Both the position numbers and the translations under genes were made by a program. The notes under the pieces are model-generated. The model saw nothing but the letters and a program-made list of their open reading frames with translations. It had not been told where the DNA came from and searched no databases. From Baekduia soli (lineage in GTDB: Bacteria > Actinomycetota > Thermoleophilia > Solirubrobacterales > Solirubrobacteraceae), in NCBI RefSeq assembly GCF_007970665.1, contig NZ_CP042430.1, positions 2,356,001 through 2,420,000 of the forward strand: a stretch of 64,000 bases of DNA, given 5' to 3'. Below, piece by piece: positions 44,493 through 60,418 of the stretch. How positions within the stretch are numbered: the first letter of the stretch is position 1; each line of letters starts with the position of its first letter.

Positions 44493-45131
44493 TCAGCGGG
44501 TGGGGCCGGGGACGCGCTGCGCGACCCCGGCCGACACGAGCGCCGTGGCGTGCTCGATGTAGCGCTCGACCAGGTCGGGGTCCATCGTGGCCTGGAACGA
44601 GCGCTCCAGCAGCGGGCCCGCGGCGAACAGGAACTCGCAGATGCCCACGACGCTGAAGAAGAACAGCGTCGGGTCGATCTCGCGCCAGCCGCTGCGGCGG
44701 CGGCCCTCGGCCAGCAGCGTCGCGTAGAAGTCGCGGGCGGGGATCGCGAAGGACGCGCTGATGCGGTCCACGGCGCCGGGCTCGGCGCGCTGCAGCCGCT
44801 CGTTCATCAGCCGGTTGACGTAGGGATAGCGCACGTAGTTGCGCACGATCTCGGCGACGTGGCGGTGCAGCGCCTCCTCGGGGTCGAGGTGCAGGGCCGA
44901 CAGCCGGTCGATCTCGCTCGACAGCCCCCGCAGGACGCGCTCGAGCAGGGCGTCGAGCAGCCCGTCCTTGCTGCCGAAGCAGTACTTGACCATCGCGACG
45001 TTGACGTCGGCGCGGTCGCAGATCTCGCTGACGGTGGCCGTGTGGGTGGCGCGCTCGACGAACAGGTCGTGGGCGGCGGAGAGGAGCTTCTCGCGGGTGA
45101 TGTCGGCGCCTCGGCGGGCCACGCGGCCCAT
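44493..45131 (-). CDS. TetR-family transcriptional regulator
   Basis: A 212-residue regulator starting at MGRVARRGADITREKLL; an ATG at 45170 would place the start inside the operator-like palindrome. The DNA-binding part is AHDLFVERATHTATVSEICDRADVNVAMVKYCFGSKDGLLDALL. The C-terminal domain is all-helical, as in ligand-responsive TetR proteins. It diverges from atuA with only 52 bp between starts, so it very probably represses atuA and the carboxylase genes. The inducer could be an isoprenoid or branched acyl-CoA, by analogy with the neighbouring enzymes. Confidence 0.85.
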   Translation of the reverse strand: MGRVARRGADITREKLLSAAHDLFVERATHTATVSEICDRADVNVAMVKYCFGSKDGLLDALLERVLRGLSSEIDRLSALHLDPEEALHRHVAEIVRNYVRYPYVNRLMNERLQRAEPGAVDRISASFAIPARDFYATLLAEGRRRSGWREIDPTLFFFSVVGICEFLFAAGPLLERSFQATMDPDLVERYIEHATALVSAGVAQRVPGPTR

Positions 45132-45156
45132 CCTGACGCGATCGCCCTTGACATTC

Positions 45157-45172
45157 AAATAAACGTTCATTT
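45157..45172. promoter_or_regulatory. AT-rich palindrome AAATAAACGTTCATTT, candidate TetR operator
   Basis: A 16-bp inverted repeat centred on AACGTT with one mismatch, in the 52-bp gap between the divergent TetR and atuA genes, 11 nt from the atuA start. It stands out as an AT-rich island in very GC-rich surroundings, which is typical of a promoter covered by its repressor. Confidence 0.65.
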
Positions 45173-45183
45173 AGTCTCCGCCC

Positions 45184-47016
45184 ATGGCTGATTCCGTGCG
45201 TCTGGGTTGTTGGGCGGCGTTCTGGGGGGACACGAGCACCGCGGTCGACCAGATCCTCGACGGGTCCGAGGTGGACTACCTCATCTCGGACTACCTGTCG
45301 GAGATCACGATGGCCCTGCTGGCCCGGGCCCGGGCCAAGGACCCCGACGCCGGCTTCGTGCCCGACGCGATCCGCGTCATCGCCGCACGCCTGCAGGACA
45401 TCCACGAGCGCGGCATCAAGGTGGTCACCAACGCCGGCGCGCTGAACCCCGCGGCCTGCGCGCAGGCCTTCCGCGATGCGGCCGAGGCCGCCGGCGTGCC
45501 GCTCAAGGTCGCGGCCGTGCTCGGCGACGACCTCACCCCGCAGGCCGACGCGATCCTGGGCTCCGACCCCAAGGACATGTTCACGGGCGAGCCGCTGCCG
45601 GCGCGCCCGATGACGATGAACGCCTACCTCGGCGCCCGGCCCATCGCGGCCGCGCTGGCCGCCGGGGCCGACATCGTCGTGACCGGCCGCGCGGTCGACT
45701 CCGCCGTTGCCCTCGGCCCGCTCCTGCACGAGTTCGGCTGGAGCGACACGGACTACGACCTGCTCTCGGCCGGAACGCTGGCCGGCCACGTCGTCGAGTG
45801 CGGGCCGCAGTGCACGGGCGGCAACTTCACCGACTGGGACATCGTGCCCGGCTGGGACAACATGGGCTTCCCCATCGCCGAGTGCTTCCCCGACGGCACC
45901 GCGATCATCTCCAAGCCCGACAACACGGGCGGCCTGGTCTCGCCCGCCACCGTCAGCGAGCAGATCCTCTACGAGATCGGCGACCCCGGCGCCTACGTCA
46001 TGCCCGACGTTCTGTGCGACTGGCGCAACATCAAGCTCGAGTCCGTGGGCGAGAACCGCGTGCGCGTCTCCGGAGCGCGCGGCAGCCAGCCGCCCACGAC
46101 CTACAAGGTCACCGCGACGCACGCCAACGGCTACCGCTGCATGACCACCGCCGCCTTCGGCGGCCTGGACGCCGGCGCCAAGGCCCGGCGCGCCGGGCAG
46201 GCGCTCGTCTCGCGCGCCGAGCGGCTCATCGCCAAGGCGGGCTTCGAGCCGCTGACGGAGTCCTCGGTCGAGGTCGTCGGCGCGGGGGACACGTTCGGCC
46301 CCGAGCACCGCAACGACGCGGCCACGGAGGCCGTCGTGAAGATCGGCGTGCGCCATCCCGAACGCGCGGCGCTCGAGCACTTCGCGAGCGAGTTCGCCCC
46401 TATGGCGCTCGTCGCCCAGGGGATGACGGGGTACTTCGCGGGCCGGCCGCGCGTCGCGCCCGCCATCGCCGTCTACCACCTGCTCATCGAGAAGGCCTCG
46501 CTGGACGTGCGCGTCCTGCTCGGCGACGAGACCATCCCGGTCGACATCGCCCCGGGCAAGCCCGGACCCGCGGCCGGCACGCCCGAGCTGCCCGACGCGC
46601 CCTCCGGCGGGGTGAGTCCGATCTCCGGCGGCTTCACCGTGCCGCTGCGCCGCCTGGCCTACGCCCGCAGCGGCGACAAGGGCAACAACGCCAACATCGG
46701 CGTCATCGCCCGCCGGCCCGAGTTCGCCGCGGTCATCGAGGAGCAGCTGACGACCGACCGGGTCCAGGCGTTCTTCCAGCAGTACCTCACCGGCGGCGTC
46801 AAGCGCTGGTCGCTGCCCGGCCTGTCGGCGGTCAACTTCATCCTCGAGGGTGCCCTGGGCGGCCGCGGCGGCACGTCGACGCTGCGCTACGACCCGCAGG
46901 GCAAGAGCTTCGGCGCGATGCTCCTGCAGGTGCCGATCGCCGTGCCGGCCGAGTGGGACGCCAACGGGCTGCTGACCCGCGACGCCGCGCCCGCGCGCGA
47001 GCAGTCGGTCGCGTGA
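45184..47016 (+). CDS. atuA: AtuA-family protein (acyclic terpene utilisation, DUF1446)
   Basis: A 610-residue protein of unknown biochemical activity but known association with geranyl-CoA/citronellol catabolism in Pseudomonas. The N-terminal AtuA domain is seen from LGCWAAFWGD, DYLISDYLSEITMA, GIKVVTNAGALNP to NITGRAVDSA-like VTGRAVDSAVALGPL and GNFTDWD. From about residue 485 a C-terminal ferredoxin-fold domain follows (RLAYARSGDKGNNANIGVIARR). Fusion of both domains is common in actinobacteria. The gene leads an operon with a biotin-dependent carboxylase (GTGA overlap), just as AtuA accompanies geranyl-CoA carboxylase. Which CoA ester is used here is unknown. Confidence 0.88.
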   Translation: MADSVRLGCWAAFWGDTSTAVDQILDGSEVDYLISDYLSEITMALLARARAKDPDAGFVPDAIRVIAARLQDIHERGIKVVTNAGALNPAACAQAFRDAAEAAGVPLKVAAVLGDDLTPQADAILGSDPKDMFTGEPLPARPMTMNAYLGARPIAAALAAGADIVVTGRAVDSAVALGPLLHEFGWSDTDYDLLSAGTLAGHVVECGPQCTGGNFTDWDIVPGWDNMGFPIAECFPDGTAIISKPDNTGGLVSPATVSEQILYEIGDPGAYVMPDVLCDWRNIKLESVGENRVRVSGARGSQPPTTYKVTATHANGYRCMTTAAFGGLDAGAKARRAGQALVSRAERLIAKAGFEPLTESSVEVVGAGDTFGPEHRNDAATEAVVKIGVRHPERAALEHFASEFAPMALVAQGMTGYFAGRPRVAPAIAVYHLLIEKASLDVRVLLGDETIPVDIAPGKPGPAAGTPELPDAPSGGVSPISGGFTVPLRRLAYARSGDKGNNANIGVIARRPEFAAVIEEQLTTDRVQAFFQQYLTGGVKRWSLPGLSAVNFILEGALGGRGGTSTLRYDPQGKSFGAMLLQVPIAVPAEWDANGLLTRDAAPAREQSVA

Positions 47017-48491
47017 GCCTCCCCGAGAAGGTCCTCGTCGCCAACCGCGGCGAGATCGCCGTGCGCATCATGCGCACGCTGCGCCGCCTGGGGATCGCCA
47101 GCGTGGCGGTCTATCACGCCGAGGACGCCTGCGGCCGCGCCGTGCGCGAGGCCGACGAGGCCGTCGAGCTGTTCGGCGACACGCCCGTGGGCGCCTACCT
47201 CGACATCGAGGGCATCGTGGCCGCCTGTCACGCGACGGGCGCCACCGCCGTGCACCCGGGGTTCGGCTTCCTGTCGGAGAACGCCGCGTTCGCCGAGGCG
47301 CTGGCCGCCGCGGAGATCACGTTCATCGGCCCGCCGCCGTCGGCGATGCGCGCCATGGGCGACAAGATCGAGTCCAAGCGCCTGGCCGCCGCGGCCGGCG
47401 TGCCGACGCTGCCCGGCTCGCCCGACGCCGTGGCCGACGTCGAGGAGGCGGTCGCGATCGCCACCGAGATCGGCTTCCCCGTCCTGCTGAAGGCCAGCGC
47501 GGGCGGCGGCGGCAAGGGCATGCGCATCGCGGTGGACGCCGACGACTGCCGCGAGGCCTTCGACCGCGCGTCGGCGGAGGCCAAGGCCAGCTTCGGCGAC
47601 GGCCGCGTCTTCGTGGAGCGCTTCATCACCAAGCCGCGCCACGTCGAGGTCCAGGTCCTGGCCGACACGCACGGCACCGTGCTGCACCTCGGCGAGCGCG
47701 AGTGCTCCATCCAGCGCCGCTACCAGAAGGTGATCGAGGAGTCGCCGTCGCCGGCGATCGACGCCGAGACGCGCGCGGCCATGGGCGCCACCGCCGTCGC
47801 GCTGGCCCGGGCCGTCGACTACGTCTCGGCGGGCACCGTGGAGATGATCCTCGACGAGGACGGCAGCTTCTACTTCCTGGAGATGAACACGCGGCTGCAG
47901 GTCGAGCACCCGGTCACCGAGCTGGTGACGGGCATCGACATCGTGGCCGAGCAGGTCCGCATCGCGGCCGGCGAGCCGCTGGGCTACGGCCAGGACGACG
48001 TGCGCATGAGCGGCCACGCGATCGAGTGCCGTGTCTACGCGGAGGACGCCGACGCCGGGTTCATCCCCGCGACCGGCCGCCTCGGCCTCGTGCGCTTCCC
48101 CGCCGGCGAGGGCATCCGCGTCGACCACGGCGTCGTCGAGGGCCAGGAGATCAGCGCCTCGTTCGACCCGATGATCGCCAAGATCGCCGCCCACGGCGCC
48201 ACCCGCGAGGAGGCGATCGCGCGCTCGCGCGACGCGCTGTGCCGCACGGTCCTGCTGGGCACGGTGACCAACACGGCCTACCTGGAGCGCGTGCTCGGCC
48301 ATCCCGACTTCATCTCGGGCGACACGCACACGGGCTTCCTCGAGCAGCACGCCGACGCGCTGGCGCCACCGCCGCCGCCCGACGACGTCGAGCGCTGCCT
48401 GGTCGCCGCGGCCGCCCTGGCCAGCCCGCGCTTCGACGAGCGCCTCGCCGCCCCCGAGCCGTTGGCGTCCATGGGCGCCTGGAGGCCCTAG
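47013..48491 (+). CDS. Acyl-CoA carboxylase, biotin carboxylase subunit
   Basis: A 492-residue ATP-grasp biotin carboxylase that starts with GTG overlapping the atuA stop. The N-terminal KVLVANRGEIAVRIMRTLRRLG, the glycine-rich ATP loop KASAGGGGKGMRI (about 163-175), GERECSIQRRYQKVIEE and FLEMNTRLQVEHPVTE (about 288-303) are intact. It carboxylates biotin on the separate carrier encoded three nt downstream. In Pseudomonas geranyl- and methylcrotonyl-CoA carboxylases this domain and the carrier are one polypeptide; here they are two. Confidence 0.92.
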   Translation: MSLPEKVLVANRGEIAVRIMRTLRRLGIASVAVYHAEDACGRAVREADEAVELFGDTPVGAYLDIEGIVAACHATGATAVHPGFGFLSENAAFAEALAAAEITFIGPPPSAMRAMGDKIESKRLAAAAGVPTLPGSPDAVADVEEAVAIATEIGFPVLLKASAGGGGKGMRIAVDADDCREAFDRASAEAKASFGDGRVFVERFITKPRHVEVQVLADTHGTVLHLGERECSIQRRYQKVIEESPSPAIDAETRAAMGATAVALARAVDYVSAGTVEMILDEDGSFYFLEMNTRLQVEHPVTELVTGIDIVAEQVRIAAGEPLGYGQDDVRMSGHAIECRVYAEDADAGFIPATGRLGLVRFPAGEGIRVDHGVVEGQEISASFDPMIAKIAAHGATREEAIARSRDALCRTVLLGTVTNTAYLERVLGHPDFISGDTHTGFLEQHADALAPPPPPDDVERCLVAAAALASPRFDERLAAPEPLASMGAWRP

Positions 48492-48494
48492 ACC

Positions 48495-49010
48495 ATGCCC
48501 TTCGAGATCACCCTGGGCGACCGCACCGCCCACACCGTCGACGTCGCCCGCCACGGCGGCCGCGCCACCGTGACGATCGACGGCCGCGACTACCACGGCA
48601 GCCTGCGTCCCGCCGGCGATGGCTACGAGCTCACGCTCGAGGACCGCACCGAGCCGATGTGGATCCTCGTCGACGGCGACGCGATCCTCGTGCATGCCTT
48701 CGGGCAGTCCTGGGATCTGGGCATCGTCGACCCCGTCGAGCGCTCGCGCGGCGGCGGCCCGTCGGAGGACGTGGCGCTGGCGCCCATGCCCGGCACCGTC
48801 ATCAGCATCGCCGTCGCCCCGGGCGACGAGGTCACCGCCGGCCTGCCGCTGATGGTCATCGAGAGCATGAAGATGCAGAGCGAGATCACCGCCGCCCGCG
48901 ACGGCGTCGTCGAGCAGGTCTTCCTGGACGTCGGCGACACGTTCGACCGGGGCGCCGCGCTCGTCGCCCTGGAGGCCGACCCCGAGACCGACCCGACCGA
49001 GGAGGACTGA
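48495..49010 (+). CDS. Acyl-CoA carboxylase, biotin carboxyl carrier subunit
   Basis: A 171-residue carrier. The biotinyl domain occupies about residues 95-165, with the site ESMKM and target Lys126. The first 80 residues (VDVARHGGRATVTIDGRDYHG, YELTLEDRTEPMWILVDGDAI) form a beta-rich segment resembling the BT domain that connects carrier and catalytic subunits in methylcrotonyl- and propionyl-CoA carboxylases, detached here from the carboxylase polypeptide. It sits between the biotin carboxylase and carboxyltransferase genes with gaps of two to three nt. Confidence 0.88.
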   Translation: MPFEITLGDRTAHTVDVARHGGRATVTIDGRDYHGSLRPAGDGYELTLEDRTEPMWILVDGDAILVHAFGQSWDLGIVDPVERSRGGGPSEDVALAPMPGTVISIAVAPGDEVTAGLPLMVIESMKMQSEITAARDGVVEQVFLDVGDTFDRGAALVALEADPETDPTEED

Positions 49011-49012
49011 CC

Positions 49013-50611
49013 GTGCACCGCCTCGAGACCCACGTCGATCCCAACTCCCCGAGCTACAAGGCGTTCTACGCCCACAACAAGGGCCTCGCGGCCGAGCTGG
49101 CCGAGACCCTGCGCAAGGCGCGCGAGGACCGCCCGCAGCGGGCCTGGGACCGCCTGGCCGAGCAGGACAAGCTCCCGGTGCGCGAGCGCCTGGACCTCCT
49201 GCTGGACCGCGGCGCGCCGTTCCTGGAGCTCATGTCGCTGGCCGCCAACCGCCACTACGACGGCGAGGCGCCCCAGGCGCTGCTGGTCACCGGCATCGGG
49301 GTCGTCAGCGGCCGCGAGGTGATGGTGATCGCCAACGACAGCTCGCTGAAGGGCGGCGCCTGGTACCCGATCACCACGCGCAAGATCGTCCGCGCGCTGC
49401 AGATCGCCCTGGAGAACAAGCTGCCGGTCGTGCACATGCTCGACAGCGGCGGCGCCAACCTCCACCTCCAGGACGAGATCTACGCCTGGGCGGGCAAGAT
49501 CTTCCAGCAGCAGTGCCACCTCAGCGCCGCGGGCATCCCCCAGCTGGCCGTCGTGTTCGGCTACTGCACGGCGGGGGCGGCGTACACGCCGACGCTGTGC
49601 GACCAGACGATCATGGTCCGCGAGCGCGGCGCGATCTTCCTGGCCGGACCGCCGCTGGTCAAGGCGGCCACGGGCGAGGAGAACACGACGGAGGAGCTCG
49701 GCGGGGCCGACATGCACACGTCGGTCTCCGGCGTGGCCGACTACGCCGTGGACTCCGAGGCCGAGGCGCTCTCGCTGGCGCGCGACATCGTCGGCGTGTG
49801 GGCCCGTCGCGAGAAGGCCGACAGCGACCGCCGCGCGCCCGAGCCGCCGTTCCACGACCCCGACCAGCTCTACGGGATCATCCCCGACGACGTCAAGAAG
49901 CAGTTCGAGATGCGCGAGGTCATCGCGCGCGTCGTCGACGGCAGCCTGTTCCACGAGTTCAAGCCGCGCTACGGCGACACGATGGTCTGCGGCTGGGCGT
50001 TCATCTGGGGCTTCAAGGTCGGCATCCTCGGCAACAACGGCGTGATCTACAGCGAGGCCGCCAACAAGGCGACCACGTTCATGCAGCTGTGCGACCGCGA
50101 CGGCATCCCGCTGTTGTTCCTGCACAACGTCACCGGCTTCATGGTCGGCCGCGAGTACGAGCGCCGGGGCATCACCAAGGACGGCGCGAAGATGCTCATG
50201 ACGCAGGCCAACGTGACCGTGCCCAAGCTCTCGGTGCTGTGCCACGCCTCGCAGGGCGCCGGCAACTACGCGATGGCCGGCCGGACGTGGGACCCGCGCC
50301 TGGTCTACGCCTGGCCCAACTCGCGCTCGTCGATCATGGGCCCCGAGCAGGCGGCCGACGTGCTGACCCAGGTCCGCGTCGCCGGCCTGCGCCGGCGCGG
50401 GGAGGACCCGTCCCCGGACGAGATCAGCACGATCAAGACCGAGGTCACGGCCTACTTCGAGCAGACCTACCACTCGTATTACCTCACCTCCGACCTGCGC
50501 GACGACGGGCTGATCGACCCGGTCGACACCCGCAACACCCTCGGGATGTCGCTGTCGGCGGTGCTCAACGCCCCCATCGTGCGCACGCCCGGCGGCGTGC
50601 TGCGCATCTGA
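49013..50611 (+). CDS. Acyl-CoA carboxylase, carboxyltransferase subunit
   Basis: A 532-residue carboxyltransferase from a GTG at 49013. It has two crotonase-like halves: MLDSGGANLHLQDEIYAW, FGYCTAGAAYTPTLCD and GPPLVKAATGEENTTEELGGADMHTSVSG in the first; LLFLHNVTGFMVGREYERRGI and HASQGAGNYAMAGRTWDPRL in the second. The AATGEE/ELGGADMH region places it with methylcrotonyl- and geranyl-CoA carboxylases rather than acetyl- or propionyl-CoA enzymes. The presence of AtuA favours geranyl-CoA or another branched 3-methyl-enoyl-CoA; leucine degradation remains possible. Confidence 0.9.
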   Translation: MHRLETHVDPNSPSYKAFYAHNKGLAAELAETLRKAREDRPQRAWDRLAEQDKLPVRERLDLLLDRGAPFLELMSLAANRHYDGEAPQALLVTGIGVVSGREVMVIANDSSLKGGAWYPITTRKIVRALQIALENKLPVVHMLDSGGANLHLQDEIYAWAGKIFQQQCHLSAAGIPQLAVVFGYCTAGAAYTPTLCDQTIMVRERGAIFLAGPPLVKAATGEENTTEELGGADMHTSVSGVADYAVDSEAEALSLARDIVGVWARREKADSDRRAPEPPFHDPDQLYGIIPDDVKKQFEMREVIARVVDGSLFHEFKPRYGDTMVCGWAFIWGFKVGILGNNGVIYSEAANKATTFMQLCDRDGIPLLFLHNVTGFMVGREYERRGITKDGAKMLMTQANVTVPKLSVLCHASQGAGNYAMAGRTWDPRLVYAWPNSRSSIMGPEQAADVLTQVRVAGLRRRGEDPSPDEISTIKTEVTAYFEQTYHSYYLTSDLRDDGLIDPVDTRNTLGMSLSAVLNAPIVRTPGGVLRI

Positions 50612-50629
50612 CCGACGAGGAGCTGGCCG

Positions 50630-51394
50630 ATGACCGACGTTGTGACCTACGAGGTCTCCGACGCCGTCGCGTGGATGACCATCAACCGCCCCGAGGCGCG
50701 CAACGCGCTGAGCAAGGCGGTTCGCGACGGGCTGTGGGAGGGCTTCCGCCGCTTCGCCGACGACGACTCGGCGGCGGTGCTCGTGCTCACCGGCGCGGGG
50801 GAGAAGGCCTTCTGCGCGGGCGGCGACCTCAAGGAGATGTCCGACACGGCGCTGACGATCCCGCCCAAGGACTTCCTGCCCTACCTGCAGCGGTCGGTCA
50901 AGACCGACAAGCCGGTCATCGCCGCCGTCAACGGCGTCGCGTTCGCCGGCGGCTTCCTGCTGGCCCAGATGGTCGACCTGGTCATCGCGGCCGACCACGC
51001 GAAGTTCGGGATCACCGAGGCCAAGGTCGGCCGCGGCTCGCCGTGGGCCGCGCCCCTGCCGTGGCTCATCCCGCCGCGCGTGGCGATGGAGATCCTCGTC
51101 ACGGGCGAGCCGATCACCGCCCAGCGCGGCTACGAGCTCGGGCTGGTCAACAAGGTCGTTCCGCTGGCCGAGCTGCGCGAGGCCGCCGAGACGATGGCCA
51201 AGGGCATCGCGGCCAACGCACCGCTGTCGGTGCGCGCCGCCAAGTCGATGGTCTACCTCTCGGCCGAGCACCACTGGACCGAGGCGCTGGACGCCGCCGA
51301 CAAGCTCTACGAGCCCGTCTACCTCAGCGAGGACGCCCAGGAGGGCCCGCGGTCCTTCAAGGAGAAGCGCCCGCCGGTGTGGCAGGGTAGGTGA
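50630..51394 (+). CDS. Crotonase-family hydratase following the carboxylase
   Basis: A 254-residue crotonase, start ATG with GAGGAG upstream. In the position of the first catalytic glutamate the sequence reads FAGGFLLAQMVD (Leu), while the second, GITEAKVG, keeps Glu. One-glutamate crotonases include the hydratases that act on 3-methylglutaconyl-type CoA esters. Placed directly after the carboxylase, it is best read as the step that hydrates the carboxylated product before C-C cleavage, equivalent to LiuC or AtuE. No lyase gene is adjacent. Confidence 0.8.
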   Translation: MTDVVTYEVSDAVAWMTINRPEARNALSKAVRDGLWEGFRRFADDDSAAVLVLTGAGEKAFCAGGDLKEMSDTALTIPPKDFLPYLQRSVKTDKPVIAAVNGVAFAGGFLLAQMVDLVIAADHAKFGITEAKVGRGSPWAAPLPWLIPPRVAMEILVTGEPITAQRGYELGLVNKVVPLAELREAAETMAKGIAANAPLSVRAAKSMVYLSAEHHWTEALDAADKLYEPVYLSEDAQEGPRSFKEKRPPVWQGR

Positions 51395-51466: not shown

Positions 51467-53143
51467 TCAGTCGCCCGCCGGCCTCTCGCGCAGCGATTCG
51501 CGGAGCTCGCTGCGGCGGATCTTGCCGCTGACGGTCTTGGGCAGCTCGTCGACGAAGTGGATCTCTCGCGGGTACTTGTACGGCGCGGTGAGGTCGCGTG
51601 AGTGCTTCTGCAGCTCGGCCGCGAGCTCGTCGCCGGCCTCGTAGCCGGGGGCGAGGATCACGAAGGCGGTGACGATCTGCGTGCGCTGCGGGTCGTCCTT
51701 GCCGACCACGGCGGCCTCGACGACCGCCGGGTGCTCGACGAGCGCGGACTCGACCTCGAACGGCCCGATCCGGTAGGCCGACGAGGTGATGACGTCGTCG
51801 TCGCGGCCTTCGAACCACAGGTAGCCGTCGCCGTCGCGCCACGCCTTGTCGCCCGTGAGATACCAGCCGCCGACGAAGGACTTCTCGTTGGCCGCGTCGT
51901 CGCGGTAGTAGCCGTCGAACAGGCCGATCGGGCGCGGGTCGGTGACCTTGACCGCGATGCTGCCCACGACGTCGTCGGGGGCGCGCTCGCCGCTCTCGTC
52001 CAGGACGTCGACGGTCCAGCCCGGCACGGGCTTGCCCATCGAGCCGGGCCGGACGTCCATCGCGCGGTAGTTGGCGACGAGCACGCAGGTCTCCGACTGG
52101 CCGTAGCCGTCGTACACCGTCAGGCCGCCCGTGCCGTCCTTCCACGCGCGGATGACCTCGGGGTTCAGCGGCTCGCCGGCGCTCGTGCAGTGGCGCACGC
52201 CGCTCAGGTCGTAGGCGGCCAGGTCGGCCTGCACGAGCATGCGGTACAGCGTCGGCGGCGCGCAGAACGAGGTGATCCCGGCGTCCTTGAGGATGCGCAG
52301 GATGGTGTCGGCGTCGGGCTTGCCCAGCGCGACCTGCACGATCGTCGCCCGTTCGTGCCACTGGCCGAACAGCCCGCCCCAGGCGGCCTTGGCCCAGCCC
52401 GTGTCGGTCACCGTCCAGTGCCGGTCGCCGGGGCGCAGGTCGTGCCAGAAGCGCGCGGTCGACACGTGGCCCAGCCCGTAGGCCGTGGGGTGCAGGACCA
52501 TCTTGGGGTAGCTGACCGTCCCGCTCGTGAAGAACAGGATCATCGGGTCGCTGCTGGAGGTGGGGGAGTCCGGCAGCTCGCCGTCGCCGGCGGCCTCCAT
52601 GATCGTCTCCAGGTCGTTCCAGCCCTCGCGATCGCCCACGCCCAGCCCGATGCGCGTGCGCAGGGTGGGGAGCTCCTCGCGCACCGCGTCGAGCTTCTCG
52701 GCGCCCACGGAGTCGGTGATCGCGGCGACCGCGTCGGCGGCGCGGATCCGGTAGGAGATGTCGCGCGCCGTGAGCTGGTTGGTGCCCGGCATGACCACCG
52801 CTCCGATGCGGATCGCGCCGAGCATCGCGAAGTACCACGCCGGATGGCGGGGCAGCATGATGAAGATCGGGTCGCCCTTGCCGATGCCCGCGGCCAGCAG
52901 CGCGCGCGCCGCCTTGCGCGACTCGGCCGCCAGCTGGGCGACGGTGTGCTCGGCGATCGTCTCGCCGCCCGGGCCCAACGAGACGAGCGCGAGGTCGTCG
53001 GGGGCCTCCTGCGCCCAGCGCTCGATGATGTCGACCACCGGGTTGAAGCGCTCGGGCAGGTCGACGTGGTAGCTCTCCCGCGCCTCCTCATAGGACGTGA
53101 GGTTGGGCGGCGCGGTGCGGTCCGGGCGTGAGATCTCAGGCAT
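51467..53143 (-). CDS. Medium-chain-type acyl-CoA synthetase (ACSM-like)
   Basis: A 558-residue adenylate-forming ligase. FFTSGTVSYPKMVLHP in place of the usual TSGTTGxPK, DTGWAKAAWGGLFGQW, YDGYGQSETCVL and GRDDDVITSSAYRIGPFEVES assign it to the ACSM/medium-chain branch, which acts on medium-chain, branched or aromatic acids. The C-terminal lysine region is KTVSGKIRRSELRE. It diverges from the CoA-transferase operon across a 90-bp gap with an operator-like palindrome. It is distinct from the CaiC-like enzymes of this window. Confidence 0.88.
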   Translation of the reverse strand: MPEISRPDRTAPPNLTSYEEARESYHVDLPERFNPVVDIIERWAQEAPDDLALVSLGPGGETIAEHTVAQLAAESRKAARALLAAGIGKGDPIFIMLPRHPAWYFAMLGAIRIGAVVMPGTNQLTARDISYRIRAADAVAAITDSVGAEKLDAVREELPTLRTRIGLGVGDREGWNDLETIMEAAGDGELPDSPTSSSDPMILFFTSGTVSYPKMVLHPTAYGLGHVSTARFWHDLRPGDRHWTVTDTGWAKAAWGGLFGQWHERATIVQVALGKPDADTILRILKDAGITSFCAPPTLYRMLVQADLAAYDLSGVRHCTSAGEPLNPEVIRAWKDGTGGLTVYDGYGQSETCVLVANYRAMDVRPGSMGKPVPGWTVDVLDESGERAPDDVVGSIAVKVTDPRPIGLFDGYYRDDAANEKSFVGGWYLTGDKAWRDGDGYLWFEGRDDDVITSSAYRIGPFEVESALVEHPAVVEAAVVGKDDPQRTQIVTAFVILAPGYEAGDELAAELQKHSRDLTAPYKYPREIHFVDELPKTVSGKIRRSELRESLRERPAGD

Positions 53144-53181: not shown

Positions 53182-53199
53182 ATTGGCGGAAGTGACAGT
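53182..53199. promoter_or_regulatory. Operator-like palindrome (site G)
   Basis: ATTGGCGGAAGTGACAGT matches 13 of 18 positions of the family palindrome. It is central in the 90-bp gap between divergent synthetase and CoA-transferase genes, 38 and 34 nt from their starts. Confidence 0.55.
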
Positions 53200-53233
53200 G
53201 GCCCCGGGGGTCGCGGCCCGGTGGGATGGGGAC

Positions 53234-54109
53234 ATGAGCCCGGGCCGCACATCGGTCGTCGCCGACCTCGACGACGCCCTCGCCGTCGTCACCGACGGCG
53301 CCGTGATCGGGATCGGCGGTGCCGTCACCGCCGGCCATCCCATGGCGCTGGTCCGGGGGCTGGCCCGCCGCGGGGTGCGCGACCTCACCGTCGTGGCCCC
53401 CGTGGGCGGCATCGAGGTCGACATCCTCATCGCCGCCGGCTGCGTCAGCCGCGTGGTGGGCTGCTACGTCGGCGCCGAGACCGTCGCGGCCGTCGGCCCC
53501 GTGTTCCGCACTGCCGCCCAGAACGGCACGATCGAGGTCGTCGACCTCGACGAGGCCCACACGGTCCAGGGGCTGCGGGCCGCCGGCCAGGGCCTGCCGT
53601 TCCTGCCCTGGCGGGGCGGCGTCGGCACGTCCTACGCGCAGCTCAACCCCACGCTCGTCGAGTTCGACGACCCCGTCCGCGGCGAGCCGTTGCTGGCCAT
53701 CCCGGCGCTCGAGCTCGACGTCGCGCTGCTGTACTCCGAGGTCTCCGACGCCTACGGCAACGCCCAGCCCGTCGGCACGGCCCACATGGATCCGCTCATC
53801 GGCTCCGCGGCCCGGCACGTCGTCCTCCAGGTCGACCGCGTCGTCAGCAACGACGAGATCCGCCGCAACCCGGGCAGCACGATCTACTGGCGCGACACGA
53901 CCGTCGTCCGCGCCCCGTTCGGCACCCACCCCTACTCCAACGGCTGGATGACGGCCGACGAGGAGCACCTGCGCGACTTCGTGCGCGCGGGGCGCGCCGG
54001 CGGCGACGACCTCGACGGCTACCTGCGCCGCCACGTGCACGGCCCGGCGGACAACGATGCCTACCTCGAGGAGGTCGGCATCCGCCGGCTGACCTCGCTG
54101 CTGATCTGA
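53234..54109 (+). CDS. CoA-transferase-family subunit A (glutaconate CoA-transferase/IpdA-like)
   Basis: A 291-residue class I CoA-transferase-fold subunit: DGAVIGIGGAVTAGHPMALVRGLARRG, VVAPVGGIEVDILIAAGCVSRVVGCYVG and VALLYSEVSDAYGNAQ. The start at 53234 is preferred because an upstream GTG/ATG would run through the operator. The subunit pairs with the next gene, six nt downstream. Relatives include glutaconate and 3-oxoadipate CoA-transferases and the ring-opening hydrolase IpdAB of steroid degradation. With acyl-CoA synthetases around, either transfer of CoA or CoA-ester ring cleavage is possible. Confidence 0.82.
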   Translation: MSPGRTSVVADLDDALAVVTDGAVIGIGGAVTAGHPMALVRGLARRGVRDLTVVAPVGGIEVDILIAAGCVSRVVGCYVGAETVAAVGPVFRTAAQNGTIEVVDLDEAHTVQGLRAAGQGLPFLPWRGGVGTSYAQLNPTLVEFDDPVRGEPLLAIPALELDVALLYSEVSDAYGNAQPVGTAHMDPLIGSAARHVVLQVDRVVSNDEIRRNPGSTIYWRDTTVVRAPFGTHPYSNGWMTADEEHLRDFVRAGRAGGDDLDGYLRRHVHGPADNDAYLEEVGIRRLTSLLI

Positions 54110-54115
54110 GCCCCC

Positions 54116-54886
54116 ATGACCGAGCCGTCGATCAACGAGCTGTTCGCCATCCTCCTCGCCCGCGACCTGCGCGAGGACGACCGCACCATCATGGTCGGCG
54201 CCAACATGCCCATGGCCCGTGCGGCCGCCGTGCTGGCCAGCCTGACCACGCACCCCGACGTGCGCGTCCTCATCGGCCTGGGCGTCCACGGCCTGGGCGA
54301 CGGCGCCGACCCGCCGGGCGTGTACCCGTTCCTGTTCGACCCGCGCACGCTCATCGGCGAGGCGCTCATGTTCCAGAGCCGTGTGTTCGACGACATGAAC
54401 CGCCCCGACGTCTTCTTCTTCGGCGGCCTGCAGCTCGACCGGCGCGGCAACCTCAACCTGTTCGGCATCCCCGACGGCGAGGGCGGCTGGAAGATGCGCG
54501 GCCCGGGCTCGCTGGCCCTGGCGACGATGAGCACCTACTGCAAGGGCTACTACATCGTCATGCCCAGCCACGACCCGCGCACGTTCGTCGAGCGCGTGTC
54601 GCTGATCTCCGCGCTGGGCGACGCGACGGAGCGCAGGCGGCTCAAGCTCCCGGGCGGCGGCATCCGCATGGTGCTCTCGCCGCTGGGCGTCTTCGACTTC
54701 GACGACGCGGGGGACATGCGCGTGCGCAGCCTGCACGCCGGCGTGACCGCCGACCAGGTCCGTGAGGCCACGGGCTTCGAGCTCGTCTGGCCCGACGAGG
54801 TGCCCGTGACGCCCGCGCCGACCGACGCCGAGCTCGAGGTGCTGCGGGGCCGGGTGGACGTGCACGGCACGCTGGCCGCGTCGTGA
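54116..54886 (+). CDS. CoA-transferase-family subunit B (IpdB/glutaconate CoA-transferase-like)
   Basis: A 256-residue beta subunit: FAILLARDLREDDRTIMVGANMP, DVFFFGGLQLDRRGNLNLFGIPDG and TYCKGYYIVMPSHDPRTFVERV. At the place where true class I CoA-transferases carry the catalytic glutamate (within a G-E-N/S-type motif) this sequence shows FFFGGLQLD and no clear Glu, which would favour the IpdAB-like hydrolase branch. This reading was made by eye and needs alignment. It overlaps the CMD-family gene (GTGA) and is part of a three-gene operon. Confidence 0.8.
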   Translation: MTEPSINELFAILLARDLREDDRTIMVGANMPMARAAAVLASLTTHPDVRVLIGLGVHGLGDGADPPGVYPFLFDPRTLIGEALMFQSRVFDDMNRPDVFFFGGLQLDRRGNLNLFGIPDGEGGWKMRGPGSLALATMSTYCKGYYIVMPSHDPRTFVERVSLISALGDATERRRLKLPGGGIRMVLSPLGVFDFDDAGDMRVRSLHAGVTADQVREATGFELVWPDEVPVTPAPTDAELEVLRGRVDVHGTLAAS

Positions 54887-55416
54887 CGCCGCGGATCACG
54901 CCGCCGGCGCACTTCGACGACCACCAGGTCGAGCAGCTCGACAAGACCTACCCCAAGCCGGGTGGGGAGTACCTGAACCTCTGGAAGACCCTGGCCCACC
55001 GGCCCGAGCTGCTGCGCCGCGTCAACGCGCTGGGCGGCTACTACCCGCGCCACTCGGTCGTCGGCGTGCGGGAGCGCGAGCTCGCCATCCTGCGCACGGC
55101 GGCCCGCCGCGGTGCCGCCTACGTCGAGGCCCAGCACCGCGCGATCGCGGCCGACGCCGGGGTGCCGGCGGCCGAGATCGCCGCGGCGGCCGATCCGGCG
55201 CTCGAGCACGCGTGGGCGCCCGCCGACGCCGCGCTGCTGGCGTTCGTCGACGAGTTCGTGGCCCACGACACGGTGGGCGACGCGACGTGGTCGGCCCTGC
55301 ACGCGCACCTCGGCGACGACGGCGTGCTCGAGCTGCTGGTGATGATCGGCTTCTACGGGCTGATCGGCGCGATGCTCAGCGCCGTGCGCGTCGAGATCGA
55401 CGCGCCGGCCGCGTAG
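54883..55416 (+). CDS. Carboxymuconolactone decarboxylase (CMD) family protein
   Basis: A 177-residue helical protein from a GTG overlapping the CoA-transferase B stop. YPRHSVVGVRERELAILRTAARRGAAYVEAQHRAIA is the CMD/AhpD core. The AhpD CxxC redox pair is absent; EAQH with a nearby His takes its place, as in decarboxylase-type or uncharacterised CMD proteins. Its position after the CoA-transferase pair suggests a ring-fission or lactone intermediate, but the reaction is not determined. Convergent with the MaoC gene twelve nt away. Confidence 0.78.
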   Translation: MTPRITPPAHFDDHQVEQLDKTYPKPGGEYLNLWKTLAHRPELLRRVNALGGYYPRHSVVGVRERELAILRTAARRGAAYVEAQHRAIAADAGVPAAEIAAAADPALEHAWAPADAALLAFVDEFVAHDTVGDATWSALHAHLGDDGVLELLVMIGFYGLIGAMLSAVRVEIDAPAA

Positions 55417-59182: not shown

Positions 59183-60418
59183 GTGGACTTCGAGCCGAGT
59201 GACCGCGCCAAGGCGCTGCTGGAGCGCGTGCGCGCGTTCCTGGACGAGCACGTCTACCCCAACGAGCGCGAGATCGAGGACGCGATCGACGCCGAGGTCG
59301 ACCGCGACACCCCGTTCCCGGCCGTCCTGGTCGAGCTGCGCGCCAAGGCGCGCGCCGAGGGCTTGTGGAACCTCGCCCTCCCCGACGAGCGCCTCGGGTC
59401 CGGCCTGAGCAACCTCGACTACGGCGTGGTCTCGGAGGAGATCGGCCGCGCGACGACCACCGCGCCCTACGTCTTCAACGTCCAGCCGCCCGACAGCGGC
59501 AACATGGAGATCCTCGTCGAGCACGCGACCCCGGAGCAGCGGGAGAAGTACACCGAGCCGCTGCTCGACGGCGACATCCGCTCCTGCTACGCCATGACCG
59601 AGCCCGACACGGCCGGCTCGGACCCCACGGGCCTGGCGTGCTCGGCCGTCCTGGACGGCGACGAGTGGGTCATCAACGGGCGCAAGTGGTGGTGCACGAA
59701 CGCGCTCGGCGCCCGGTTCGCGATCGTCATGGCGGTCACCGACCCCGACGGGCCCAAGCACTCCCGAGCCACGATGCTGCTGGTCCCCACCGACACGCCC
59801 GGCTTCCAGTACGTCCGCCCGCTGTCGAACATGGGCCACACCGCCGGCCCCGGCCACTGGGAGCTGGCCTTCGAGGACTGCCGCGTCCCGGCCGGTATCT
59901 CCACGCTGGGCGGCCGCGGCAACGGCTTCAAGATCTCCCAGGACCGCCTCGGCCCCGGTCGCATCCACCACTGCATGCGCCTCATCGGCGTCGCCGAGCG
60001 CGCGCTGGAGCTCATGTGCGCGAGGGCCAAGTCCCGCGAGATGTTCGGCTCGCCGCTGTCGGACCGGCAGTTCATCCAGGACTTCATCGCGACCTCCCGC
60101 GCCGAGATCGACCAGGCGCGCCTGGTCACCTGGCACGCCGCGTGGAAGCTCGACCAGGTCGGCAACCGCGCCGCCCGCGAGGAGCTGTCGATCACCAAGC
60201 TCGTCGTGCCCACCATGGGGCTCAACGTCGTCGACCGGGCCATCCAGGTCTACGGCGGCGCCGGCGTGTCGGAGGACACGCCCCTGTCGTGGATGTACCG
60301 CTACAACCGCATGCTGCGCATCGGCGACGGCGCCGACGAGGTGCACAAGATGGTCATCGCGCGCATGGAGCTCGCGAAGGTCAAGGATCCGGAGCCGACG
60401 ACGGCGGGAGCACGATGA
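59183..60418 (+). CDS. Acyl-CoA dehydrogenase
   Basis: A 411-residue FAD flavoenzyme, GTG start with GGAGG five nt upstream. CYAMTEPDTAGSDPTGLACSA is the FAD/acyl-CoA segment, INGRKWWCTNALGARF follows, and QVYGGAGVSEDTPLSWMYRYNRMLRIGDGADEVHKM is the conserved C-terminal region. The profile resembles the long-N-terminus ACAD branch related to ACAD10/11, whose partner kinases are APH-fold proteins; an APH kinase follows within the same gene group. It should introduce a 2,3-double bond in an acyl-CoA. The crotonase gene overlaps its stop (ATGA). Confidence 0.88.
   Translation: MDFEPSDRAKALLERVRAFLDEHVYPNEREIEDAIDAEVDRDTPFPAVLVELRAKARAEGLWNLALPDERLGSGLSNLDYGVVSEEIGRATTTAPYVFNVQPPDSGNMEILVEHATPEQREKYTEPLLDGDIRSCYAMTEPDTAGSDPTGLACSAVLDGDEWVINGRKWWCTNALGARFAIVMAVTDPDGPKHSRATMLLVPTDTPGFQYVRPLSNMGHTAGPGHWELAFEDCRVPAGISTLGGRGNGFKISQDRLGPGRIHHCMRLIGVAERALELMCARAKSREMFGSPLSDRQFIQDFIATSRAEIDQARLVTWHAAWKLDQVGNRAAREELSITKLVVPTMGLNVVDRAIQVYGGAGVSEDTPLSWMYRYNRMLRIGDGADEVHKMVIARMELAKVKDPEPTTAGAR

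Follow-up and report, generated by a model that had tools for sequence, protein, structure and literature searches.

An Atu-like operon of Baekduia soli with a carboxylase divided among three proteins

In the Atu system of Pseudomonas (atuABCDEFGH, with the regulator AtuR), AtuA accompanies a gamma-carboxylase and a crotonase. The literature on geraniol degradation is split over the release of acetate, which has been assigned to AtuA or to LiuE, and an mBio 2022 article (PMC9973270) only ‘speculated’ on the role of AtuA. Citramalate lyase converts (S)-citramalate, a tertiary hydroxy acid, to acetate and pyruvate (PMC4682846), and the AtuA-like ThnQS of anaerobic naphthalene degradation have been reported to cleave a 3-hydroxyglutaryl-CoA analogue. 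Here we analysed a stretch of 64,000 nucleotides (the window; positions 2356001–2420000 of the 5.2-Mb single-contig genome of Baekduia soli) in which AtuA heads an operon that also encodes a biotin carboxylase (BC), a biotin carboxyl carrier protein (BCCP), a carboxyltransferase (CT) and a crotonase, beside a divergent TetR-family gene. These six genes span 44493–51394 and every part named in an initial annotation of the sequence is present (Table 1). We conclude that the locus is genuine and conserved, and that it is new in part, in that it varies the Atu scheme by using a split gamma-carboxylase of a third kind. It is probably a module that removes the beta-methyl group from 3-methyl-branched 2-enoyl-CoAs; these would exceed 3-methylcrotonyl-CoA in size and most probably derive from isoprenoid acids.

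The operon resembles the Atu cluster in its AtuA, gamma-carboxylase, one-glutamate crotonase and divergent TetR regulator. It differs in that the carboxylase consists of three proteins, the CT falls into another clade and no AtuB, AtuD, AtuG or AtuH, nor any dehydrogenase, was found inside the operon. The initial annotation had described a smaller version of the Atu operon under a TetR gene of its own, with AtuA overlapping a carboxylase that has a separate BC and carrier, and the gene content bears this out: AtuA and the BC gene overlap by 4 bp, the start codon of BC is GTG (47013), the BC and BCCP genes (encoding 492 and 171 amino acids) lie 3 bp apart and those for BCCP and CT 2 bp apart, and every reading frame of the operon is open. 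Like geranyl-CoA carboxylase (GCC; AtuC/AtuF, structure 5ikl), the window CT has a small residue in place of a pocket phenylalanine and no three-residue insertion, but the residue is Ala rather than Gly, the CT lies outside the AtuC-type clade, and BC and BCCP are separate. With 3-methylcrotonyl-CoA carboxylase (MCC; LiuB/LiuD, structure 3u9r and the human enzyme) it shares the overall CT sequence, nearly end to end, and a hook tryptophan, but it has neither the phenylalanine nor the insertion, its alpha subunit is split after that tryptophan, and no HMGL-family gene lies within the window.

Carboxyltransferase pocket and divided large subunit

According to a structural study of both enzymes (PMC4673880), MCC carries Phe191 and a three-residue insertion, and GCC carries Gly162 without the insertion; Phe191 blocks geranyl-CoA in MCC, and mutating the pocket residue can shift substrate preference. 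The initial annotation had proposed comparing this pocket. The best single PDB sequence match of the window CT is the beta subunit of Pseudomonas aeruginosa MCC (3u9r, E 2.8e-158), but alignments place Ala160 at the position of MCC Phe191 and GCC Gly162, with the insertion absent, so that the pocket is not MCC-like. For reference, the Phe of the HFG motif is residue 191 in human MCC chain 8j4z, Ala160 corresponds to index 161 of GCC chain 5ikl, and the matched stretches of 5ikl and the window CT are equally long. Gly or Ala occupies this position in all 50 CT rows from sets in which the alpha subunit is split, 15 of which (actinobacterial) lack the insertion and 35 of which keep it; some of the 50 are near-duplicates, and two loci (L208 and L066) look like one contig. 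Among CTs that accompany a fused alpha subunit, Gly or Ala was found in 20 of 23 and Phe in 3. The MCC Phe is present without exception in the 29 other best-ranked actinobacterial loci, which served as a control. We had considered that close split CTs might be common in Actinomycetota; this was not borne out, as no other listed match among 396 genomes drawn from that phylum exceeds 54% identity and the 29 best-ranked others have Phe. As the bulky residue is replaced by Ala here, and by Gly or Ala in all split rows, a substrate larger than 3-methylcrotonyl-CoA is predicted.

A tree of 76 CT rows, for which five remoter CT paralogs encoded in the window genome served as the outgroup, contains a split clade (34 rows, SH-aLRT 99), a GCC-type clade (22 rows, 96) and an MCC-type clade (15 rows, 89), with the window CT outside both the MCC and the AtuC-type clades. 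Near-identical rows had been thinned by name, which also removed the MCC-type rows of L095 and L103. The tree was made by a quick method without bootstrap, with a warning about long outgroup branches, and leaves open the fork that joins the three clades, with which a sister relation of the split and GCC clades is compatible. Holding 13 actinobacterial split rows together with 11 MCC rows was rejected by an approximately unbiased (AU) test (p-AU 1.2e-5), the groups having been named after the first tree was seen. Grouping with leucine-pathway MccB, which the initial annotation had named as the phylogenetic half of the outcome that would count against it, was not observed, and its suggestion of a substrate other than 3-methylcrotonyl-CoA is supported as probable by the pocket Ala and the separate clade. 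Judged by sequence, the split CTs appear to be a third lineage of gamma-carboxylases beside MCC and GCC.

PMC4673880 describes the BT domain of MCC and GCC, which contacts the beta subunit, as a beta barrel together with a long helix and a hook loop, with a ‘mostly conserved’ hook Trp (Trp483 in GCC, 543 in MCC) buried at the beta interface. The window BC has no Pfam match to a BCCP domain and ends in MGAWRP, followed directly by the stop codon, with Trp490 at the hook position of the alignment. A tryptophan as third-last residue (W-x-x-stop; for example GGWRN, GEWRP or GAWRP) recurs in 39/39 split BC rows (38 distinct) from several phyla, an alignment that left out L112 (short) and L118 (gapped), and the hook Trp position is also present in 11 split BCs of sets found through their CT (L208 is probably a repeat of L066). 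In fused alpha subunits the same column holds Trp in 19 of 26 rows (for example, SGWRNN and GWHSS) and other letters in 7. The BCCP matches BT_MCC_alpha (PF21139) with E 2.2e-6, over model positions 42–117 of 118 only and at 28.5 bits, below the 31-bit cut-off; its biotin site, ESMKM, starts at residue 123, with Lys126. An AlphaFold 2 (AF2) model of the BCCP (pLDDT 89.0, pTM 0.57) has eight strands in residues 3–78, followed by the carrier fold and without a leading helix. Foldseek aligns this model end to end with the BT-BCCP part of the alpha subunits of propionyl-CoA carboxylase (PCC) and MCC (best E 9.3e-12, with TM-scores of only ~0.4). The carrier domain alone gives a VIA Z of 14, and the whole-length rmsd is 10–15, from which we take the two domains to sit at different angles.

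The simplest reading of these alignments and models is that the large subunit is cut inside the BT domain, directly after the hook Trp. The BT domain would then be completed between two chains, with the BC tail contributing the helix and the hook that attach to the CT core and the BCCP contributing the barrel. The initial annotation had the carrier retaining a BT-like N-terminal domain, which holds for the barrel, whereas the helix and hook are found at the end of BC.

AtuA, the crotonase and the lyase position

The AtuA domain matches PF07287 with 462.4 bits against a cut-off of 22.8, over model positions 1–435 of 437. In a sequence search of solved structures its sole significant relative is citramalate lyase subunit A (CmlA; 9erq, E 4.5e-6; profile E 6.4e-8). 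The AF2 model of AtuA (pLDDT 88.5) aligns with the citramalate lyase chain 9evf_A over 415 residues (Z 30.6, rmsd 3.6; Foldseek E 3.3e-24), and the next structural match (Z 9.7) covers one small region only; the remaining VIA matches lie mostly in residues ~313–429, where they reflect a widespread ferredoxin-like arrangement, and we gave them no weight. The profile alignment places GRxxD, EC, D, LYExxDP and VSGxR motifs in both proteins. The modelled AtuA domain has the CmlA fold and, on the proposal made here, the two would have in common an acetate-releasing cleavage of a tertiary hydroxy acid; CmlA differs in being a 456-residue chain without coverage of the ferredoxin-like domain, and citramalate carries no CoA. 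ThnQ and ThnS, which are annotated as AtuA-like and can be likened to AtuA by description, reportedly turn a 3-hydroxyglutaryl-CoA-type tertiary alcohol into a 3-oxoacyl-CoA, but are two polypeptides and act on a ring substrate. By analogy, the logic common to AtuA, citramalate lyase and ThnQS may be cleavage at a carbon that bears a tertiary hydroxyl. Given this fold and these AtuA-like precedents, AtuA is the best candidate for acetate release here, and we propose that it acts as a 3-hydroxy-3-alkylglutaryl-CoA:acetate lyase. The initial annotation stated that AtuA has no assigned reaction; this understates the record, in which two assignments compete, the structure of a relative has been solved and a lyase activity has been reported for an AtuA-like enzyme. 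Open-access literature searches pairing citramalate lyase with AtuA, on AtuE, and on Conexibacter with terpenes returned nothing informative.

Aligned to its solved relative 3r9t, the window crotonase has Leu110 where 3r9t has Glu and keeps Glu130; we take these columns to be the two classical catalytic Glu positions. The initial annotation pointed out this one-glutamate crotonase; we reject the view that it is odd, as a single Glu is the usual state in AtuA clusters: 58 of 60 crotonase rows from AtuA loci have lost the first Glu and kept the second, the exceptions being L121, which keeps both, and one upstream row of L071, which has neither. The first position is Leu in 7 and Arg in 1 of the other rows downstream of split sets, and Gly in 12/12 crotonases at the AtuE position and in those upstream of AtuA (21/21 in loci with a split carboxylase, 4/4 with a fused one, 12/13 with neither). 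The window crotonase is only 26–30% identical to the AtuE-position crotonases of most classic clusters.

Other carboxylases of the genome suggest which step AtuA may fill. Downstream of the CT at 357399 (L057) come a crotonase and an HMGL-family gene, and the CT at 4932647 (L059) stands after an HMGL-family gene; both have the MCC Phe. Beside the window CT, with its Ala, AtuA occupies the place of the HMGL-family gene, and all five HMGL-family places of the genome are outside the window. As a correlation only, this pattern agrees with AtuA serving as the lyase for substrates that 3-hydroxy-3-methylglutaryl-CoA (HMG-CoA) lyase does not take.

Conservation, neighbouring genes and regulation

The nearest named AtuA relatives are in Conexibacter (83% identity to Conexibacter sp. 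RYN_248) and other Solirubrobacterales. The order AtuA-BC-BCCP-CT-crotonase recurs in G004, G052, G046 and G024 and in L066, L067, L070 (Amycolatopsis), L071 and L075 (Pseudonocardia), and is kept in Solirubrobacterales-type and Pseudonocardiaceae loci; as it recurs in other genera, the arrangement is not due to chance. Other organisms also have the split carboxylase. Gaps at the split point are between -4 and 3 bp in actinobacterial rows. Among the best 80 of at least 577 loci confirmed in an AtuA alignment scan of genome contigs, a split BC-BCCP-CT set is nearby in 34 and a fused alpha subunit in 20, with both in 2 loci. Neither was seen in the remaining 28, of which some are interrupted by the end of a contig or by a disrupted reading frame. 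The classic order AtuA-CT-acyl-CoA dehydrogenase (ACAD)-crotonase-fused BC/BCCP is found in Alcanivorax, Halopseudomonas and Marinobacter loci. Annotated plasmid records under generic names include split sets with AtuA in Nitratireductor, Roseovarius and Sulfitobacter; on the Sulfitobacter plasmid (L063:10806–17388), branched-chain-type ABC transporter genes and an AMP-binding gene stand between AtuA and the split carboxylase, a hint at an imported substrate.

AtuA matches occur in 12/101 genomes searched and in 2/7 within the genus, that of the window included. Anchoring on the CT instead, we found matches with E <= 1e-200 in 9/399 genomes of the class of the window, and AtuA is adjacent in 7/7 that can be judged, window included; two of the nine loci are on cut contigs, and in one of these genomes (G028) part of AtuA turns up on a different contig. 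The corresponding alphaproteobacterial sample comprised 289 genomes from the class to which Bradyrhizobium jicamae (L078) belongs, of which 11, including that of the query, had a CT with E <= 1e-210; BC, BCCP and CT are together in 8 of the other 10.

Several loci have unusual neighbours. Split-clade BCCP-CT pairs adjoin a glyoxalase-family gene at L197:4033–5293 and L198:6411–7718, with no BC match in the fetched stretch, and at L201:5750–7134 a split-clade carboxylase is beside an HpcH/CitE-family lyase and a MaoC hydratase, the lyase in the place of AtuA. In a Solirubrobacterales metagenome-assembled genome (MAG), the AtuA split set directly adjoins an MCC-type set whose alpha subunit is fused (L071:2553–12306). 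An MCC-type CT (Phe) stands several kb downstream of alphaproteobacterial split sets (L064:18220, L080:18439, L092:18583, L095:19263, L103:19263 and L117:19245), as expected if 3-methylcrotonyl-CoA is an end product. The AtuA homolog at L049:5105–8351 is in two pieces ~1.4 kb apart, that of L048 has an in-frame stop, and the BC of L046/L073 is broken over two frames; insertion, decay or sequencing error are possible causes. The MAG records L068 and L074 are titled Bifidobacterium breve, but the genes of their AtuA loci are near Solirubrobacterales, and the titles look wrong. A scan of viral contigs gave no lead.

Table 1 Features of the AtuA operon and its flanks (window coordinates).
Feature	Position	Strand	Evidence and remarks
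TetR-family regulator	44493–45170	-	PF00440 E 5.4e-10, PF14514 E 1.3e-22; divergent from AtuA
Promoter/operator-like stretch	45148–45183	+	TTGACA 45148–45153, imperfect palindrome AATAAACGTTCATTTAG 45158–45174; directly before AtuA ATG
AtuA, 610 aa	45184–47016	+	PF07287 E 1.9e-138; AtuA_ferredoxin PF23544 E 7.2e-25 (C-terminal)
BC, 492 aa	47013–48491	+	Three biotin-carboxylase Pfam domains
BT barrel and BCCP, 171 aa	48495–49010	+	PF00364 E 2.8e-16; ESMKM
CT, 532 aa	49013–50611	+	PF01039 E 2.7e-129
Crotonase, 254 aa	50630–51394	+	PF00378 E 5e-58; proposed 3-alkylglutaconyl-CoA hydratase
Acyl-CoA synthetase-like (AMP-binding) gene	51467–53143	-	PF00501 E 1.7e-66, PF13193 E 8e-25; outside the core operon

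The acyl-CoA synthetase-like gene beyond the crotonase also neighbours the AtuA operon in near relatives. Past it, at 53183–55416, are an IpdA/IpdB-like pair of CoA-transferase fold and a CMD-family gene, and further outside the operon are a second AMP-binding enzyme (56314), a zinc alcohol dehydrogenase (57932) and an ACAD (59183). Elsewhere in the genome, a second AtuA-family gene (L054:9583–10893; G000:C1:770603–771880) encodes 437 amino acids in which only the AtuA domain was found, with no carboxylase match nearby in the 19.5 kb inspected.

Counting that of the window, 7 loci conserve the promoter/operator-like stretch, though not without variation. As it lies within the first 13 codons of the long TetR open reading frame, translation of TetR more likely starts at Met14 (45131). 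With up to 3 mismatches allowed, the palindrome occurs once in the window (0 expected from shuffles), and its core, with up to 1 allowed, once in the whole 5.2-Mb genome (control 0). Searching by pattern gave no match in L044, L045, L069–L072 and L075, which are more distant actinobacterial loci, and the overall picture fits a dedicated local regulator in the near relatives. The divergent TetR protein probably represses the operon at this palindrome. The AtuA transcript is possibly leaderless. Pseudomonas likewise has an inverted repeat before atuA, but the AtuR repeat given in PMC9973270 differs in sequence from the window palindrome.

Substrate, rival explanations and significance

Gene order, split point, pocket residue and CT clade are established here, and the AtuA fold by a model; from these we infer the following series of steps. 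BC, the BT-barrel/BCCP protein and CT would together carboxylate the gamma-methyl carbon of the 2-enoyl-CoA to give a 3-alkylglutaconyl-CoA, the crotonase would hydrate this to a 3-hydroxy-3-alkylglutaryl-CoA, and AtuA would cleave the tertiary carbinol in a retro-aldol reaction to acetate and a 3-oxoacyl-CoA, which ordinary beta-oxidation would finish. Acyclic isoprenoid acids are our first guess for the substrate.

A number of observations weigh against this pathway or leave it incomplete. The operon lacks an acyl-CoA dehydrogenase, the nearest one found being that at 59183. AtuA and citramalate lyase share low identity (17%), the match stops short of the C-terminal ferredoxin-like domain of AtuA, the citramalate lyase structure binds ADP, and a monoterpene review (PMC4097962) assigns the step to LiuE, not AtuA. 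The GCC-clade CT of the same genome (L058) has neither AtuA nor an HMGL-family gene in the 16.5 kb inspected, and the argument from the lyase position is therefore not general. Of the 10 alphaproteobacterial CT loci, AtuA is adjacent in 1 (L196) and an AtuA-like match lies ~9 kb off in 1 (L199/L219), and it was not found in the other 8 (12–18 kb fetched for each); in the class of the window, the contig that carries the close CT of G002 is cut, and no AtuA match was found anywhere in this 81%-complete assembly. We therefore rejected the idea that AtuA always accompanies the split carboxylase: the pairing is not obligatory, and the split carboxylase has a broader distribution than the AtuA module, although in the class of the window the two usually go together. 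Finally, with IpdAB-like genes as neighbours, the substrate could come from a ring.

Since near relatives also have IpdAB-like genes adjoining the operon, acids derived from rings may be substrates, but that AtuA opens or trims an alicyclic or steroid-like tertiary alcohol together with the IpdAB-like pair seems to us quite improbable. ThnQS offer a precedent, the best solved matches of the IpdA-like protein are IpdA-type chains (6con, E 6.9e-31), and five Conexibacter-like loci (L065, L066, L068, L206 and L207), some cut by contig ends, have beside the AtuA set IpdA (5/5), IpdB (4/5), CMD (3/5) and MaoC (2/5) genes. The same protein, however, also resembles glutaconate CoA-transferase (3.3e-26), and the core is without an IpdAB match in L044, L045, L067, L070, L071 and L075. 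A true geranyl/citronellyl-CoA pathway, in which this would be Atu in actinobacterial dress with dehydrogenase and oxidation genes elsewhere, is unlikely but deserves consideration: the operon brings together the Atu core of AtuA, carboxylase and one-glutamate hydratase, its pocket lacks the MCC insertion as in GCC, and two ACADs and an MCC-type CT occur close to the split sets of six alphaproteobacterial loci (L064, L080, L092, L095, L103 and L117). The CT nevertheless falls outside the AtuC-type clade, the alpha subunit is split, AtuB, AtuD and AtuG were not found in the operon, and a different CT of the genome, which belongs to the GCC clade, is accompanied by a fused alpha subunit (L058).

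That the locus is a paralog set for 3-methylcrotonyl-CoA in leucine/isovalerate degradation would fit the closest PDB sequence, P. aeruginosa MCC beta, but we reject this reading as very improbable on the pocket residue, the tree and the AU test, and the same genome has two other MCC-type sets with HMGL-family genes. We give almost no credence to the split being a decaying remnant of an operon on its way to loss. The patchy occurrence of AtuA, the in-frame stop of L048 and the interrupted AtuA of L049 could be read in that way, whereas the frames of the window are all open, the split point is the same in 39/39 rows from several phyla and the gaps in actinobacterial rows are -4 to 3 bp.

Open-access literature searches found no description of an AtuA-linked three-protein carboxylase. 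A sequence rule, comprising a split BT domain and Gly or Ala at the Phe191 position, defines carboxylases that are labelled only generically in the annotated records examined. We tentatively suggest that this third gamma-carboxylase lineage (Actinomycetota, Pseudomonadota and one SAR324 genome), with a BT domain completed in trans, might be an exchangeable front end for different C–C lyases, AtuA in the window and an HpcH/CitE-family protein in L201, acting on branched acids that neither MCC nor GCC accepts. By tying AtuA to a solved lyase, the analysis makes the dispute between AtuA and LiuE over acetate release in terpene degradation separable by assay. An inter-subunit domain divided between two chains, if true, would also reveal how the BC part is attached to the CT core.

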